The position numbers and the translations under genes were made by a program. DNA of 38,400 nt from Minisyncoccota bacterium (GTDB taxonomy: Bacteria; Patescibacteriota; Microgenomatia; UBA1400; PJMF01): contig JAOUMD010000009.1 of assembly GCA_029881675.1 (NCBI GenBank), forward strand, positions 1-38,400, in the 5' to 3' direction. Positions 3,086 to 17,134 of this stretch are shown in pieces. Every line of letters starts with the position of its first letter. Positions within the stretch are counted from its first letter, which is position 1. Below the pieces are notes generated by a model. That model did no database searches. It saw nothing but the letters and a program-made list of their open reading frames with translations, and was not told the DNA's origin.

Positions 3086-4320
3086 TGGCAAAAAAAACTT
3101 CAAATCGCATACTTTGGTATAGCTTTGCTTTGTATTTCCTATCTCTTGTGGCCTATGCCATTTTTTCTTACTCTTTAACTGCACCCAATTTAGTCCTATC
3201 TACAAATTCTACATTTTGGAAATTTCAAACTTATATGTGGAAAACTTTCTTTAATAATAGAGAACTACTTACTCAAACATATTTTGGTTTAATTGGAATT
3301 ATATTTTTTAACTATTTATTCTTTGTTTCACAGGCTATTAAACAAAAAATTAATAATTTTAAACTGATCTTAATATTATTCTTTGCACTCGTAATTCCTC
3401 TTTTAATAAGTAATAATGCTCTCTCTTATGATGCATTTAACTATATTTTTAATGCAAAAATGGTCAGTGTCTATCACGTGGATCCACATACCCAAGTTGC
3501 ACTAGACTTCCCAGATGATTCTTGGACTAAATTCATGCATAACACTCATACCACAGCTCCTTATGGTAGGGCATGGACATATCTGTCATTAGTTCCTTTC
3601 TCACTTGGTATGGGGAAATTTGTAATCACTTGGTTAAGTTTTAGATTATTTAGTTTGTTACCTCTAGCAACATTATTATTTATCTTTTGGAAATATCATA
3701 AAAAAATAAATTACACTTGGCTCATTTTTTTAGTCTTTAATCCCTTAGTCTTAATTGAAGTTATCTCAAACGTTCATAATGATTTTTGGATGATTACTCC
3801 AGCAATATTATCATTGCTATTGATAGACTCACAAAGAAGTAAAAAAACTAATTTCTCCTCTATTATTAAGGTTTTATTTTCAATTGTACTGTTAGGTCTT
3901 TCCATCTGGATTAAACTAGCTACTATCTTACTAATTCCAATTTGGCTTTTGATATTAATTAAAGACAAACTGAAGGATATTCCTCACTTTTACTCTTTAG
4001 CTAATAGCTGGCCTGTATTAGCCTCTCTTGCGATGTTTGCTCCATTACTTACTAGTAGATCTCAATGGTTCCATCCTTGGTACCTTGCTTGGTCTATTTC
4101 TTTTATTCCATTATTTTCTAAGAGAAATAAGTTTGGGGCTGCTTGGGCTGTTTCTCTACTAGTTCTATCTATTAGCTCAATGTATCGTTATCTGCCCTTT
4201 TTGTGGCATAACAATTACGATGGAGACGTCTTATCCTGGCAAAGAATGATTACATTTATTCCCTTTGGCATTATCTTAATTCTGTCATTTAAAAAAGTCT
4301 TATTTAATAAAAAAAGATAA
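3085..4320 (+). CDS. Polytopic membrane glycosyltransferase, GT87/MptB-like GT-C family
   Basis: 411 residues, almost entirely hydrophobic, with about ten membrane segments. After the second or third segment comes LSYDAFNYIFNAKMV followed by HVDPHT and a proline-rich loop. This matches the Y-D/F-x-Y and D-P-h pattern of polyprenyl-phosphomannose-dependent alpha-mannosyltransferases and DUF2029/GT87 enzymes. These extend glycans outside the membrane from lipid-linked donors. The start overlaps the upstream GT2 stop by one base, and a terminator follows 60 nt after the gene, making it the last gene of the glycosyltransferase unit. Family assignment is by motif and topology only, and the sugar is unknown. 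Confidence 0.6.
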   Translation: MAKKTSNRILWYSFALYFLSLVAYAIFSYSLTAPNLVLSTNSTFWKFQTYMWKTFFNNRELLTQTYFGLIGIIFFNYLFFVSQAIKQKINNFKLILILFFALVIPLLISNNALSYDAFNYIFNAKMVSVYHVDPHTQVALDFPDDSWTKFMHNTHTTAPYGRAWTYLSLVPFSLGMGKFVITWLSFRLFSLLPLATLLFIFWKYHKKINYTWLIFLVFNPLVLIEVISNVHNDFWMITPAILSLLLIDSQRSKKTNFSSIIKVLFSIVLLGLSIWIKLATILLIPIWLLILIKDKLKDIPHFYSLANSWPVLASLAMFAPLLTSRSQWFHPWYLAWSISFIPLFSKRNKFGAAWAVSLLVLSISSMYRYLPFLWHNNYDGDVLSWQRMITFIPFGIILILSFKKVLFNKKR

Positions 4321-11352: not shown

Positions 11353-13038
11353 CTACTTCCTCAAAAACATTTTTTCTAATTCATAAACTGACATGACAAC
11401 TCTAACTGGTCTTCCATGAGGACATGTGTAGGCACCAGTTGTATTATCTAGTTTTTCTATTAAATTCTTCCTCTCTGCCATAGTCAAATATTCACCGGCC
11501 ATAATAGCATTTCTACATGATAAGAAGTTTAGTACTCTGATTGTTTGAGAGTCAATTAATCCTTCATTAAATCCGATTTCATAACTATCAATTATCTCAC
11601 TAAGCAGAGATAAATAATCATGTTCTAACATTAATAAAGGAACGTGAGTTAAATATAGATCACTTTCTGACTTATCTAACCTAAACCCCATCTTTGATAA
11701 AAATTGTTCTAAGTCCTTTACTTTTTGTAAATCAGAAATACTCAAGTCGATAGTCACTTTTTTACTAAGTAATGTTGAGTTTTTATCAGAAATCAAAAAT
11801 TCCTCTCTAAATTGTTCAAACAAAATTCTTTCATGAGCAGCATGTTGATCAACTAAAACCATACCTTGAGCACTAGGATAAATTAGATATGTGTTATCAA
11901 TCTGAATAATTTCTTCTTCAATTGGTTTTTCTTTGACATTAAAAAACTCTGTCTTCTCTTTTAGTATATCTCTAGTGTGACCAATTGTTTGTCTATCTCT
12001 TAAAGTTAATTCTTGCCTTGAAGGTTGATTGAAATTATATGTTAAATCATTTTCCTGCAATGCTATCTCTATAGCATTTTGTACAAAATATAATATTTGC
12101 CCAATGTCTACAAATTCTACTTTCCTTTTATGGGGATGAATATTTACATCTAACTGATTTGGCTCAAGTTCTATATTCAAGACAAAGACTGGATATGCAT
12201 GAGGTTCTAAAAGTGGACCATAAGTCTTTTTAATAATTTTACTTATTTTATGATCAGAGACTGGTCTTGAGTTAATATATAAAAATTGTTTTGAATTATT
12301 TTTTCTTGATAATTGAGGTTTAGAAATAAGACCCGATATTTTAAGTTTATCTATTGATGATTCTAATGATACTAATTGATCTGAAATTCTTGAGCCAAGG
12401 AGATATTTTACTCTCTGACTTAAGTCACTCTGACCTAAACCAGTATGTAATAAACTCTTACCATTATTAAATAAAACAAATGATACGGTGTGATTAACCA
12501 AGGCAAACTCAGTCACAACTTCTAACACTTTTCTTAACTCTAATGCTGAATTTTTAAGAAATTTTTTTCTAGCTGGAACACCTGCAAATAATTGTTCTAC
12601 TCTGATAGTGGTTCCAACAGGCATGCCCAAGGGAGACTGACCGATTAGCTCTCCTTTCTCTAAAAGAACTTTAAAACCACTATCTTGTCCTTTTTGCCTA
12701 CTTTGAATTTGTAATTTACTCACTCCAGCAATACTAGATAAAGCTTCTCCACGAAAGCCAAATGACCCAACCCTTGCTAAATCTTCTTTTGTAATAATCT
12801 TACTTGTTGTATGTTTTAGAAAACATTTTTTTAAATCACTCTCACTCATTCCCATTCCATCATCTGTAATTGAAATTAGATCAAGACCAGAGTTTTCTAA
12901 TCTAATTTCTATATTTTTTGAGTTAGCATCTAGAGAATTTTCAATCAATTCTTTAAGTATTTGAGATGGTCTTTCTGCAACCTCACCAGCAGCAATAATT
13001 GCTATTACTTCATTGGTGAGTTGTTTAATATTTCCCAT
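11353..13038 (-). CDS. mutL: DNA mismatch repair protein MutL (endonuclease type)
   Basis: 561 residues. The N-terminal GHKL ATPase has IAAGEVAERP, ELIENSLDA (about 30-38), ITDDGMGM (about 57-64) and GFRGEALSSI (about 94-103). The C-terminal dimerisation domain carries the metal-dependent nicking motif DQHAAHERILFEQ (397-409), the SCRNAIMAGE element and CPHGRPV near 541. MutL with this site cuts the new strand itself, as expected where no MutH exists. The linker (about 335-380) is short. The gene follows mutS with one base between them, so the two are almost certainly co-transcribed. Confidence 0.97.
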   Translation of the reverse strand: MGNIKQLTNEVIAIIAAGEVAERPSQILKELIENSLDANSKNIEIRLENSGLDLISITDDGMGMSESDLKKCFLKHTTSKIITKEDLARVGSFGFRGEALSSIAGVSKLQIQSRQKGQDSGFKVLLEKGELIGQSPLGMPVGTTIRVEQLFAGVPARKKFLKNSALELRKVLEVVTEFALVNHTVSFVLFNNGKSLLHTGLGQSDLSQRVKYLLGSRISDQLVSLESSIDKLKISGLISKPQLSRKNNSKQFLYINSRPVSDHKISKIIKKTYGPLLEPHAYPVFVLNIELEPNQLDVNIHPHKRKVEFVDIGQILYFVQNAIEIALQENDLTYNFNQPSRQELTLRDRQTIGHTRDILKEKTEFFNVKEKPIEEEIIQIDNTYLIYPSAQGMVLVDQHAAHERILFEQFREEFLISDKNSTLLSKKVTIDLSISDLQKVKDLEQFLSKMGFRLDKSESDLYLTHVPLLMLEHDYLSLLSEIIDSYEIGFNEGLIDSQTIRVLNFLSCRNAIMAGEYLTMAERKNLIEKLDNTTGAYTCPHGRPVRVVMSVYELEKMFLRK

Positions 13039-13039
13039 A

Positions 13040-15673
13040 CTACTTAACGTATTTTGTTAATAACATATCAAGCTTTGATAGAGCTTCAACAGGAGTTATT
13101 TTATTTATTGAAATGTCACTTAAATCTTTTTTGAATTGAGCATAATCTAAGCTAGAATTGACTTGTTCTAAATTATTAGAAGCAACCGTATTAGTTTCTA
13201 TATCAGGAGCCAATTTATCAAACTCTTTCATTAATACTTTAGCTCTTTTAATTACACTTTCAGGAATACCCGCCAACCTCGCAACTTGAATCCCAAAACT
13301 ATGAGAAGCAACTCCTTTAGTAAATAGGTATAAGAACACAGGAGCCTGTTTATGATTTTTAATTGACATATAGAAATTAGAAATTTTGTCTGGAAATTTT
13401 GTCTCTAATTCTTGTAATTCATGGTAATGAGTTGCAAAAAGTGTTTTTGGAGTCCTAGATGAGTTTGTGACTAATCTTTCTGCAACTGACCAAGCGATAC
13501 TTATCCCATCATAGGTACTAGTACCACGACCAATTTCATCCATAATCACCAAACTTTTATCTGTCGCATTATTTAAAATTCTAGCTGTTTCTATCATCTC
13601 TACCATAAATGTAGATAAACCTTCTGTAATTGCATCACTGGCTCCACTTCTAACAAAAATTTTATCTGTTAAACTAATTCTTGCTTCTCTGGCGGGAACA
13701 AATGAACCAATATGTGCTAATAAAACTATTAAAGCTGTTTGCCTCATCAAAACTGATTTACCGGCCATGTTAGGACCTGTAATAACAGTAAGCTGCCTAT
13801 CATTCTGATCTAAATAAGTATCATTGGGGACAAAGTTATGTTTTTCTATTATCTTCTCAATAACTGGATGGCGGCCACTTCTTATATCTATTATGTTTTC
13901 TAATATAATACTTGGCTTTGTAAAATTATGCTCTAGACTAACTAATGCAAATGACACTAAACAGTCTAACTGAGCAATCTTATTAGCAAGCTTTTGAATT
14001 GGGCTAACAAAAGTTAAAAGCTTACTAACAGTCTTTAAAAACAACCGATACTCTATCTCAAAGATCTGATCTTCAGCCTCTAATACGATTTGCTCATGAT
14101 GTTTTAACTCTTTGGTGATGTATCTTTCTGCATTTACTAAAGTTTGTTTACGTTGATATGTTTTTGGAGCAAGATGTAAATTAGCTCTGCTGATTTCAAT
14201 ATAGAAACCAAACACTTTATTGTATTTAACTTTTAATGAACTAATACCTGTCTTCTCTCTTTCTTTAGTTTCAAATTTATCCATCCAATCTCTACTCTTT
14301 AAGGTGACAGATCTTAACTCATCTAACTTTTTATCTATACCAGATTTAATAAACCCACCATTTTTGGGATTAATAGGCGGATTTTCATCAATTGTGGATC
14401 CAATTAATTCAATTACTTTCTCAATTTGTTTATCATTTTTAATTAAGCTACTAATATTTCCCTTAGACAGTTTTAAAAGTTGCTCCACCAACAACGATTC
14501 TTTCAAAGAATCTTTTAAACTAATTAAATCCCTAGGAGTACCAAAATTTAGGCTAAGTCTAGAAAGTGTTCTTTCTATGTCATTAATCTTTTTTAATGAA
14601 GAAGTTAGATCTTCTCTTAGTTCCCTATTAGTAACTATTTCTTCAACTACATTTAATCTGCCCTCAATTCTTTTTTTATCAAAGAGTGGTTTCACTAACC
14701 ATTTCTTGAGTAATCTTCCTCCCATAGCAGTACTAGTAAAGTCAATCAGATCCAATAGAGAATTTTTCTTATTACCGCTTAATGTCTGTAAAAGTTCTAA
14801 ATTATTAATTGTTGAACGATCCATCTCTAAATAATTACCATCAGAAAACTGAGTAATCTTTTGTAAATGTTTTAAATCAACTTTCTGAGTATATTGAAGA
14901 TAGCCAAGAAGGACATTACAGACTTTACCAGTAACTATTCTATCTTCCAAATTAAGACTCTTTAAACTTTTTACTTTAAAAATGTCTAATAAGTTGTTTT
15001 TATAATTTTTTGTAAACTTATTCCAGTCTTCAAAACTATAAATAAAAAAATCAGGATAATTTACAAATAAATTCATTCTATCTTTATCAAAATAGAATTC
15101 TTCCTTAACAATTGCTTCAACCGGTTTTATCTTAGAAAAGAGATCATCAATGACTTGTTTAGCTTTAATTAAATTAATTTTTTCTTCTTCTATAAATGAA
15201 ATCTCTCCTGTTCCTAAATCACAAATAACAATTGATAAAGTGGAACTAATATAATCTAAGGCTAAAATATAATTATTCTTCTTTTTTTCTAATCCCCTAT
15301 TATTTAAATTTGTTCCTGGGGTAACAACTCTAATAACTTCTCTCTTTACTATCCCTTTTCCATTAGGAAGACTGACTTGATCACAAATGGCCACTTTATA
15401 CCCAGCACTAACTAACTTAGCTAAATATGAATCAACAGCATGAAATGGAACTCCACACATTGGAATTTCGCCATCTTTCCCCCTATTCTTGGCAGTTAGT
15501 GTAATATCAAGGATATTAGACGAAATCTTGGCATCTTCAAGAAACATTTCATAGAAATCACCGAGCCGAAAAAATAAAATACAGTCTGAATACTGTTTTT
15601 TTATCTCCAAGTACTGGAGCATCATTGGGGTTTTAAATTGGCTAATATCTGTTTGTTTGTCCACAAGACTCAA
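13040..15673 (-). CDS. mutS: DNA mismatch repair protein MutS
   Basis: 877 residues, normal MutS size. The mismatch-binding wedge is GDFYEMF (Phe40, Glu42), preceded by TPMMLQYLEIK. The ATPase has Walker A GPNMAGKS (633-640), MDEIGRGTSTYDG (Walker B and signature) and FATHYHEL. It recognises mispairs and recruits MutL, encoded next. No ATG is available at the N-terminus: the listed start is TTG at 15673, and a GTG three codons on (15664) is an alternative. A TATGAT lies just upstream, but its spacing fits the GTG rather than the TTG, so the exact start is unsettled. The upstream RelA/SpoT-like gene ends 35 nt away. Confidence 0.95.
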   Translation of the reverse strand: MSLVDKQTDISQFKTPMMLQYLEIKKQYSDCILFFRLGDFYEMFLEDAKISSNILDITLTAKNRGKDGEIPMCGVPFHAVDSYLAKLVSAGYKVAICDQVSLPNGKGIVKREVIRVVTPGTNLNNRGLEKKKNNYILALDYISSTLSIVICDLGTGEISFIEEEKINLIKAKQVIDDLFSKIKPVEAIVKEEFYFDKDRMNLFVNYPDFFIYSFEDWNKFTKNYKNNLLDIFKVKSLKSLNLEDRIVTGKVCNVLLGYLQYTQKVDLKHLQKITQFSDGNYLEMDRSTINNLELLQTLSGNKKNSLLDLIDFTSTAMGGRLLKKWLVKPLFDKKRIEGRLNVVEEIVTNRELREDLTSSLKKINDIERTLSRLSLNFGTPRDLISLKDSLKESLLVEQLLKLSKGNISSLIKNDKQIEKVIELIGSTIDENPPINPKNGGFIKSGIDKKLDELRSVTLKSRDWMDKFETKEREKTGISSLKVKYNKVFGFYIEISRANLHLAPKTYQRKQTLVNAERYITKELKHHEQIVLEAEDQIFEIEYRLFLKTVSKLLTFVSPIQKLANKIAQLDCLVSFALVSLEHNFTKPSIILENIIDIRSGRHPVIEKIIEKHNFVPNDTYLDQNDRQLTVITGPNMAGKSVLMRQTALIVLLAHIGSFVPAREARISLTDKIFVRSGASDAITEGLSTFMVEMIETARILNNATDKSLVIMDEIGRGTSTYDGISIAWSVAERLVTNSSRTPKTLFATHYHELQELETKFPDKISNFYMSIKNHKQAPVFLYLFTKGVASHSFGIQVARLAGIPESVIKRAKVLMKEFDKLAPDIETNTVASNNLEQVNSSLDYAQFKKDLSDISINKITPVEALSKLDMLLTKYVK

Positions 15674-15708
15674 GATATCATAATTAGATAAATATTTTCA
15701 GTAATAAA

Positions 15709-16980
15709 CTAGATATTAGTTAGTCTACCGTGATTCAATAACTTAGATCTGATAGCAGAAACATCTTTATCTCTATTTTCTCCAACTATATCTTGATCAT
15801 AACCATAAATTTCTTGTGGGAAAAGTTTTTGAGCACTTACCCTGCTTTTTCTTAAACCAAACAACTCATGAGCCTGCTCAAGCTCATAGCGATAATTCAT
15901 ATACTCAACTTGATCCATTACCATTATTTCAACAGGAGTATCATCTTCTGATAAATATACTAAAGTTCTAATAAAACTAACTTTATTTGATTGACCCCGC
16001 CCAGATTTAACTCTACTCTTACCAATAAATTTTGCATCTGGATATTGATCTCCAATCATCATTAAGACTCTATTCATCATAATACTTCTATTTCCCGTAG
16101 GCACAACAAACATAAAACCAGTTGTATCCAAAAGGTCAACATCCTGACCAATTCTAATTTTAGGTCTATCCTCAATATCTAATGTAGAGTTATAAATCAT
16201 TTTTCTAATAATTGAAAAATCAGATTTTGTTCTCATGTTTGCAAGAACATCTCCAACAGTATCAACCTGTCTAACACTCCATTTATGAGACTTTATATGT
16301 ACTTGCTCTTGTAATGAGTTTAACTTAATAAAATCATTAGCTTCATCTTGAGAGTAAAAGGTACCAAGACATTCATTGCTTTCTTCATCATGAATTGAGA
16401 ATAAATCCTTTGGTTGAGTATCACCAATTAAGCCTTCGTATAAACTATGTTCAAAAATTTGTTGGAGTGAATGAAGACTTTCTGAATTTGGGACCGTATG
16501 ATTATATTTAGAAAGTTCCATAAGCATGATTGCTAAAACATCCTGTCTCAATATTTCATATTTAAATCTTGAAGTACTTCTACCATTGCTCATCATTAAG
16601 TGAATTCTTCTAGCCAGATTTACTGTGGGTACGCTTGTAGTATTTAGCAAACCCACTTCATATTCCATATCAGGATATGAAGTATTAATTAATCCTTCTA
16701 CGATCTCATTAGATTTATGGTACATTTCCAGAATAATCATTTCTATTTGGACCTGATCTAAATTTCTAAAGTAAGGAAATAAAATTCTAATCTGTTCAAA
16801 TATTAGATCACTTGCTAACTGCAGTTTTTCAAGATCTGGATCATCTGAAAGTAGTTCTAAAATCTCTCTTGCTCTTTCTTGACCAAATAATTCTACAAAA
16901 AAACGCAATAAAGCAAACTCATTTTCTTCTGGAGCTTTTTCTAAAACTGATGCTGGTATATATATTTCTCTTTTTGGCAC
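15709..16980 (-). CDS. Probable RelA/SpoT-like nucleotidyltransferase-fold protein (divergent)
   Basis: 423 residues. The first ~230 are helical and not recognised. The C-terminal ~170 show the order of a RelA/SpoT synthetase domain: RTKSDFSIIRKMIYN, then DLLDTTGFMFVV where the family has D-x-R-A/G-x-R-I, then NKVSFIRTLVYL at the YQSIHT position. Last comes PVEIMVMDQVEYMNYRYELEQ, where the family has VEIQIRT followed by a helix. The Glu of VEI is kept, but the Arg and His residues expected for catalysis mostly differ. It may therefore be inactive or specialised. The only plausible start is the GTG at 16980, which follows a terminator-like hairpin whose 3' arm (GAGGGG) doubles as Shine-Dalgarno. 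Located upstream of mutS. No other function is suggested. Confidence 0.4.
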   Translation of the reverse strand: MPKREIYIPASVLEKAPEENEFALLRFFVELFGQERAREILELLSDDPDLEKLQLASDLIFEQIRILFPYFRNLDQVQIEMIILEMYHKSNEIVEGLINTSYPDMEYEVGLLNTTSVPTVNLARRIHLMMSNGRSTSRFKYEILRQDVLAIMLMELSKYNHTVPNSESLHSLQQIFEHSLYEGLIGDTQPKDLFSIHDEESNECLGTFYSQDEANDFIKLNSLQEQVHIKSHKWSVRQVDTVGDVLANMRTKSDFSIIRKMIYNSTLDIEDRPKIRIGQDVDLLDTTGFMFVVPTGNRSIMMNRVLMMIGDQYPDAKFIGKSRVKSGRGQSNKVSFIRTLVYLSEDDTPVEIMVMDQVEYMNYRYELEQAHELFGLRKSRVSAQKLFPQEIYGYDQDIVGENRDKDVSAIRSKLLNHGRLTNI

Positions 16981-17035
16981 AAATAAAAAGCCCCTCAGGA
17001 GAGGGGTATCTATTAATTTTTATAATAACCCCTCA
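16981..17035 (-). promoter_or_regulatory. Attenuator-like leader with mutually exclusive hairpins
   Basis: On the minus strand, GAGGGGT (17028-17034) can pair with ACCCCTC (17001-17007), a 7-bp stem. The same CCCCTC (17001-17006) can instead pair with a second GAGGGG (16991-16996) around a 4-base loop, followed by CTTTTTATTT, which is an intrinsic terminator. The two structures cannot coexist. The terminator ends directly at the GTG start of the next gene, and its 3' arm also looks like the ribosome-binding site, so control of transcription, translation or both is possible. Confidence 0.65.
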
Positions 17036-17089
17036 GCCTATATTGGCAAAAATAATGAGTTGCTTGGTTACTATTAAAATATTTTTCAT
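17033..17089 (-). CDS. Putative 18-residue leader peptide (upstream ORF)
   Basis: The frame encodes MKNILIVTKQLIIFANIG and stops with a TGA that overlaps the 5' arm of the first hairpin of the leader described at 16981-17035. Five of 18 codons are Ile (two are ATA). The ATG lies seven bases after a TAGAAT (17097-17102), the same leaderless spacing seen at other starts in the window. A ribosome finishing this ORF would cover the antiterminator arm and favour the terminator; one stalled earlier would leave it free. Expression is not proven. Confidence 0.45.
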   Translation of the reverse strand: MKNILIVTKQLIIFANIG

Positions 17090-17096
17090 CTCAAGC

Positions 17097-17102
17097 ATTC
17101 TA
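17097..17102 (-). promoter_or_regulatory. -10 box for the leader of the RelA/SpoT-like gene
   Basis: TAGAAT on the minus strand, seven bases before the leader ORF ATG. The -35 at the 17-bp position (TTCATT) is weak. Confidence 0.4.
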
Positions 17103-17134
17103 TCATCAAATAAAATAAAAATGAAGCTAACTTA

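Follow-up and report, generated by a model that had tools for sequence, protein, structure and literature searches.

The RelA/SpoT-like gene in the window, that is, the whole 38,400-nt stretch of DNA analysed here, which is an entire contig of the 1.08-Mb, about 95% complete genome of a Minisyncoccota bacterium, is very probably controlled by a ribosome-mediated transcription attenuator. Upstream of the gene lie an antiterminator and an intrinsic terminator that are mutually exclusive, and the end of a short leader ORF overlaps the antiterminator arm (Table 1). The preliminary description of this DNA had proposed this mode of control, and the proposal is supported by the same anatomy before aminoacyl-tRNA synthetase and amino acid genes and before homologs of the controlled gene; every coordinate that it gave is exact, base for base, on the minus strand.

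Table 1. Features of the locus and of the leaders with the same design elsewhere in the home genome (leader peptides before other genes are given up to their stop codons; gene names of these targets are readings of the protein sequences)
Feature	Position	Strand	Remarks
284-aa upstream gene	17989-17135	-	
Extended -10 TGATAGAAT	17105-17097	-	includes the hexamer TAGAAT, 17102-17097
-10 element TAGAAT	17097..17102	-	7 nt 5' of the leader ATG; from sequence
Leader ORF MKNILIVTKQLIIFANIG	17033..17089	-	18 codons, 17089-17036; TGA, 17035-17033; predicted leaderless
Arm 2, GAGGGGT	17028..17034	-	5' arm of antiterminator; overlaps the leader TGA
Arm 3, ACCCCTC	17001..17007	-	common to antiterminator and terminator
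Terminator CCCCTC-tcct-GAGGGG	17006-16991	-	followed by CTTTTTATTT and the GTG start at 16980
Arm 4, GAGGGG (16996-16991), and U-tract CTTTTTATTT	16981..16996	-	intrinsic terminator; reaches the start codon
Controlled gene, 423-aa RelA/SpoT-like putative nucleotidyltransferase	15709..16980	-	GTG start
mutS	13040..15673	-	35 nt 3' of the RelA/SpoT-like gene; TTG start
mutL	11353..13038	-	last gene of the block
Leader MLLKKFLLPTTTTTTMKR			TTTTTT (Thr6); before thrS
Leader MNTNITAQLVAHHNSHI			HH; before hisS
Leader MKLNTQLTTAWWNSLK			WW; before trpB-trpS
Leader MKKTKLFTNCCINPLK	L072:14346-15305		CC; before PIG-L deacetylase and cysS operon
Leader VKLTLLINQQNQQAN			NQQNQQ; before gatCAB
Leader MIKTKLHFKLAFSTTSSL	L087:9018-9151		contains Ser; before serB-like gene
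Leader MLINIALYQNNHHHHAISEVI	L027:813-1829, contig C1		leaderless, His4; before DapF-like epimerase gene

Taken by itself, the leader ORF is unremarkable in AT-rich DNA, and its significance lies in the combination of elements. None of 4000 dinucleotide shuffles of the 220-nt region combines a -10 element and a terminator with a short ORF at whose end a competing arm lies. The folding energies are -13.1 kcal/mol (z -3.0) for the terminator and -16.9 for the antiterminator region; the full leader, when folded in isolation, also permits other structures, and the window copy has no strong 1:2 hairpin. The genome contains 150 intergenic sites with a hairpin followed by a T-run, among which the terminator in the window is the one nearest to a downstream start (10 nt), and a terminator is located within 30 nt of the start in only 11 of the 1007 predicted genes. 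Because the U-tract runs into the GTG codon, a promoter cannot fit between the terminator and the RelA/SpoT-like gene, so that transcripts of this gene that start in the intergenic region all have to cross the terminator.

The preliminary description had also taken the leader ORF to be leaderless, an assumption that is borne out by the strong enrichment of TANAAT 5-9 nt upstream of start codons across the genome: among 761 genes of at least 150 codons each, this motif occurs 113 times in that interval versus about 18 times per 5-nt bin further upstream. Given this enrichment and the presence of a Shine-Dalgarno (SD)-like motif in only 13% of the genes (background 6%), this organism probably has many leaderless transcripts, and TAGAAT at its distance from the leader ATG would be a normal start for this genome.

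The same design recurs in the home genome, where, for nine terminators, a stretch of 6 nt or more of the 3' arm is repeated upstream, compared to 1.9 expected. The leaders listed in Table 1 precede genes to many of which their codons are cognate, and most of the home-genome attenuator leaders begin 6-8 nt downstream of a -10 element and end with a stop codon at arm 2. Downstream of the DapF-like gene, there are genes for GNAT, VanX/VanY-like, HAD and nucleoside hydrolase proteins, and the His4 leader suggests a histidine-related substrate for this locus. Several other units were observed in the same genome: an attenuator-like tandem pair (leaders MLHSVLSTNLYFMFLK and MKIKINNFYTSMFNLMYLRGGCYL) that precedes a GNAT gene and an aminotransferase (L055:3990-4250); a leader rich in aromatic codons, beginning with MQIRNTFYYMWLFNLTG, which has both antiterminator and terminator and lies in front of a low-molecular-weight phosphatase-like gene (L035:18930-19090); and an attenuator-like unit with the leader MKNIYFTHPMKNTCLQIIWVQRGVS, located 5' of the thrS attenuator and lacking a clear gene of its own (L056:12800-12920), a similar unit being present in a genome of the same genus (L111).

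We then compared upstream regions of thrS, hisS and trpS from relatives. Candidates with all the required features precede 14 of the 30 thrS genes and 12 of the 27 hisS genes; tandem Thr codons are present in all 14 of the former (three or more in 13), and tandem His codons in 11 of the latter, with no other amino acid coming close to the cognate one, whereas shuffled upstream regions yield no candidates (0/174). The distance from the end of the cognate run to arm 2 is mostly 5-16 nt (Thr, 5-14; His, mostly 9-16); in the home genome, it is 15 nt for Trp and 19 nt for Cys, and the tandem Ile codons 12-13 (AUU AUU) of the window leader end 16 nt upstream of arm 2. Sequence comparison thus establishes, as firmly as it can, that this lineage uses ribosome-mediated attenuation, largely with leaderless leaders; the element in the window shares the anatomy of these cognate-codon attenuators.

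The RelA/SpoT-like gene itself is rare, being found in 3 of the 88 genomes of the order and, across the class, in 16 of 374 sampled genomes. Roughly half of the homolog loci have it flanked by a divergent aspS and a convergent recJ; at others, trpS or what looks like a PRPP synthetase gene is nearby, and the pairing with mutSL is limited to the window. An intrinsic terminator is located 7-25 nt before the start in 10 of the 15 homologs (families f95, f96 and f99), against a base rate of 1.1% in the home genome (binomial 7e-17, relatedness ignored), and in the same 10, a leader ORF and an antiterminator that competes with the terminator also lie immediately upstream of the gene; no terminator was found before the gene in the other five. 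The simple terminator scan misses terminators with a 1x1 mismatch, and those of L205, L206 and L210 come from sequence reading and RNAfold. These 10 leaders were chosen by the terminator alone, and in all 10, the leader folds onto the 5' arm of the terminator better than in shuffles (p from 0/300 to 0.033; Fisher 4e-12), compared to 11 of 149 ordinary terminators used as a control. Three structures, namely an upstream hairpin, the antiterminator and the terminator, appear in the aligned f96 leaders, and each consensus fold has five pairs with compensatory changes on both sides; several of these leaders are not leaderless, with candidate promoters further upstream. Homolog leaders have no match in Rfam.

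The window leader cannot be aligned with those of close relatives because the gene is absent from the genome of the same genus and the two nearest homologs (L013 and L014), which belong to the same family as the window gene, have no attenuator; a search of the contigs of relatives for homologs of this family returned only the two known ones. The conservation check in relatives that was proposed at the outset succeeded through other genera and families. The tree requires three gains or losses: the association of attenuator and gene is recurrent, but it is unproven that the window copy descends from the same ancestor as the others.

Additional features were observed around these loci. In five f96 loci (L202, L203, L205, L207 and L210), a small hairpin with a U-run lies about 150-190 nt before the start of the relA-like gene, between promoter-like sequence and the leader ORF, and could be a second, promoter-proximal terminator. 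The aspS gene divergent from the relA-like homolog has a T-box-like AGGTGGCACCGC (L012, about 3200-3480; L011, about 3560-3860; minus strand), followed in L012 by a terminator, without a match in Rfam; this leader is a possible divergent T-box. A T-box reading of the window leader itself was dropped for lack of a T-box motif and of an Rfam match. At the site syntenic to the window positions 11353-17134, the genome of the same genus (L026:8907-8908) lacks the relA-like/mutS/mutL block, a difference that reflects either gain by insertion or clean loss. The mutS gene is missing from most of the sampled relatives, and no attenuator is present 5' of mutS in relatives, where it was sought as a possible common home of the element. 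With a -10-like TATGAT 10 nt upstream of its TTG, mutS in the window may be expressed from its own promoter or co-transcribed with the RelA/SpoT-like gene.

The anatomy of the window leader and the recurrence of the design are read directly from the DNA; from these, we infer its transcription start, translation, termination and dependence on stalling. RNA polymerase would start at or beside the AUG of the 18-codon leaderless ORF, with a ribosome following. When translation is brisk, the ribosome would reach the UGA and mask arm 2, so that arms 3 and 4 pair and terminate transcription before the GTG. A ribosome stalled upstream of arm 2, for which the codons around Ile12-Ile13 are the best candidates, would instead let arms 2 and 3 pair and block the terminator, and the RelA/SpoT-like gene would be transcribed, perhaps together with mutS and mutL.

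As to what is sensed, the attenuator could be narrowed to an isoleucine-specific device, in which AUU AUU at codons 12-13 is the control site and only uncharged tRNA-Ile triggers expression, to the exclusion of a general sensor; we regard this as a tentative possibility. The preliminary description had stressed an Ile-rich ORF, and this much stands: 5 of the 18 codons are for Ile, and the Ile12-13 pair lies at a distance from arm 2 that is within the range of the cognate runs. The homologs, however, do not support specificity for Ile; AT-rich DNA is expected to yield such Ile richness (and easily does, for which reason Ile content alone was rejected as evidence), the operon lacks an Ile-related enzyme and the homolog leaders share no Ile run. 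Unlike those of thrS and hisS, the latter have no codon run at all, but are mixed in codons (MKNNFVRIMKLYTRYKRR, MIIRRLQQFIHPYIRNCLKWQCV, MRREKHISTLRVFALIWDGLTCR, MNTKLNIIFKPCRLFVTEEWFE, MKTTQYNLLLKLHSFTEEWFE, MKLTCLSKKIWHYRSFIWESGGSGGDPDKQG and MKSLFVSKLIICYRPLMWGSGGGGDNPGQRE), as is MKNILIVTKQLIIFANIG in the window. These mixed-codon leaders lead us to lean toward a general sensor of slow or stalled translation, which is at least as plausible as a sensor of Ile and is the simplest reading, with an Ile sensor being possible for the window copy.

Three explanations that dispense with the stalled ribosome fare far worse. It is very unlikely that the hairpin is an ordinary terminator of the 284-aa upstream gene, with a third arm that is a chance or duplicated repeat and with the operon fed by read-through: terminators commonly separate tandem genes, and the upstream gene is followed by no other terminator, but the hairpin is 128 nt past the stop codon of that gene, whereas 78 of 115 terminators are within 50 nt of theirs, the arrangement never appeared in the shuffles, and the design repeats with cognate codons and before homologs in unrelated neighborhoods. 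We assign hardly any probability to a switch between terminator and antiterminator that is driven by a protein or a small molecule (an RNA-binding protein or riboswitch), with the ORF left untranslated. Two competing hairpins would suffice for such a switch, and Rfam at relaxed thresholds gives the window leader sub-threshold matches only, such as that to Phe_leader (RF01859; 21.7 bits versus a gathering threshold of 55); yet no Rfam family is found in the window or the homolog leaders, there is no conserved core resembling an aptamer, the ORFs finish at arm 2 both in the window and in the paralogous leaders, and the sister leaders carry cognate codons. Equally improbable is a translational switch, in which the arm 3/arm 4 hairpin would mask the ribosome-binding site of the GTG gene without stopping transcription, because, although GAGG inside arm 4 lies about 12 nt upstream of the GTG, this spacing is long for an SD sequence in a genome where few genes have one, the hairpin is followed by a U-tract, and the SD-like GAAAGGAG or GGAAAGGA of the homologs falls outside the hairpin.

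The assignment of the 423-aa protein, which had been described as RelA/SpoT-like, is borne out in part. No match to Pfam, PDB sequences or PF04607 (at E up to 10) was detected; PF04607 is present in 100 of the 145 sampled genomes of the phylum, and the home genome, about 95% complete, has none. The pattern of catalytic motifs is nevertheless in favor of the assignment: R237, K252, K260, D285 and E351 are invariant across 16 homologs, R250 and G288 are nearly so, and the spacing R250-x-K252-x3-S256-x3-K260 is that of Rel synthetases (aligned Patescibacteria Rel). In a profile-profile alignment with the Patescibacteria Rel, which is not significant, the catalytic columns are superimposed. The fold match is weak: for a low-confidence structure model (pLDDT of 46), too poor to be relied on, 8 of the 10 best Foldseek matches are RelA/SAS structures with E of 0.015-0.1, and the ten best PDB matches include RelSeq, FaRel2, SAS1, SAS2 and RelP. 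The protein thus resembles the RelA/SpoT enzymes (Rel, SAS) in having R-x-K...S...K, D..G and E in the same order, and differs from them in the lack of a profile match, in a long N-terminal half of its own and in the G-loop. The tyrosine in the G-loop of RelA/SpoT synthetases stacks GDP/GTP, and no invariant Tyr is found between D285 and E351 among the homologs. On this motif pattern and model, 'RelA/SpoT-like nucleotidyltransferase' is a fair working name, and the function of an alarmone enzyme is plausible, if unproven.

The element resembles the classical ribosome-mediated attenuators, namely the trp, his, ilv and pheA leaders modelled previously (PMC1183508), in the short leader ORF, the competing antiterminator and terminator, and the stop codon at the antiterminator arm, which would cause a fast ribosome to favor termination. 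Unlike these, the window leader has a leaderless start, mixed codons and a target other than an amino acid biosynthesis operon. Leaders with the ORF at the 5' end of the RNA, where stalling controls downstream genes, have precedents in Sinorhizobium meliloti, in which rnTrpL RNA begins with the trpL ATG (PMC7298713), and in the polycysteine leaderless ORFs of mycobacteria (Canestrari 2020, in the passages of PMC13236596 that cite it). Those are single cases in Alphaproteobacteria and Actinobacteria, whereas here there are at least eight in one Patescibacteria genome, one of them before a RelA/SpoT-like gene; no homology with these leaders is claimed.

A further parallel involves whiB7, which encodes a transcription activator of drug-resistance genes. 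In general translation-stress attenuators such as that of whiB7/wblC, as would be the case in the window, a leader ORF that lacks a codon run signals impaired translation to a stress gene; the differences are that the target here is an alarmone-synthetase-like enzyme, that the phylum is another one and that no sequence relation is shown. The whiB7/wblC upstream ORF is among those cited in PMC13236596. The preliminary description knew of no such attenuator for a gene of this kind, in keeping with our search of the PMC literature, outside which most subscription papers lie: no attenuator of an alarmone synthetase gene was described there, and no paper treats attenuation or leader peptides, taken in this sense, in Patescibacteria or CPR. 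A Corynebacterium paper (PMC6892785) deals with how ppGpp affects amino acid attenuators and not with an attenuator of an alarmone gene.

Since few Patescibacteria (CPR) are culturable, little work has been done on how they regulate their genes. Judging from the leaders described here, ribosome-mediated attenuators placed before tRNA synthetase and amino acid genes, and largely equipped with leaderless decoy ORFs, may be the means by which such small genomes monitor amino acids and translation. The leader peptides also predict functions, as with the link to histidine that the His4 leader indicates for the DapF-like gene, and make regulatory links legible, as with the CC leader before the cysS operon and the Ser leader before the serB-like gene. 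As a speculative reading that we offer with reserve, the ribosome sensing of the stringent response might have moved into RNA in these Patescibacteria: in the home genome, which yielded no canonical Rel, a divergent alarmone-synthetase-like enzyme would be made only when the ribosome falters on a mixed-codon leader, so that the ribosome would be read at the gene and not by the enzyme, and this attenuator would be one of a broad, unrecognized and largely leaderless set. If the attenuator guards an alarmone-synthetase-like gene, its effect would be to make transcription the step that couples translation stress to a stress enzyme.
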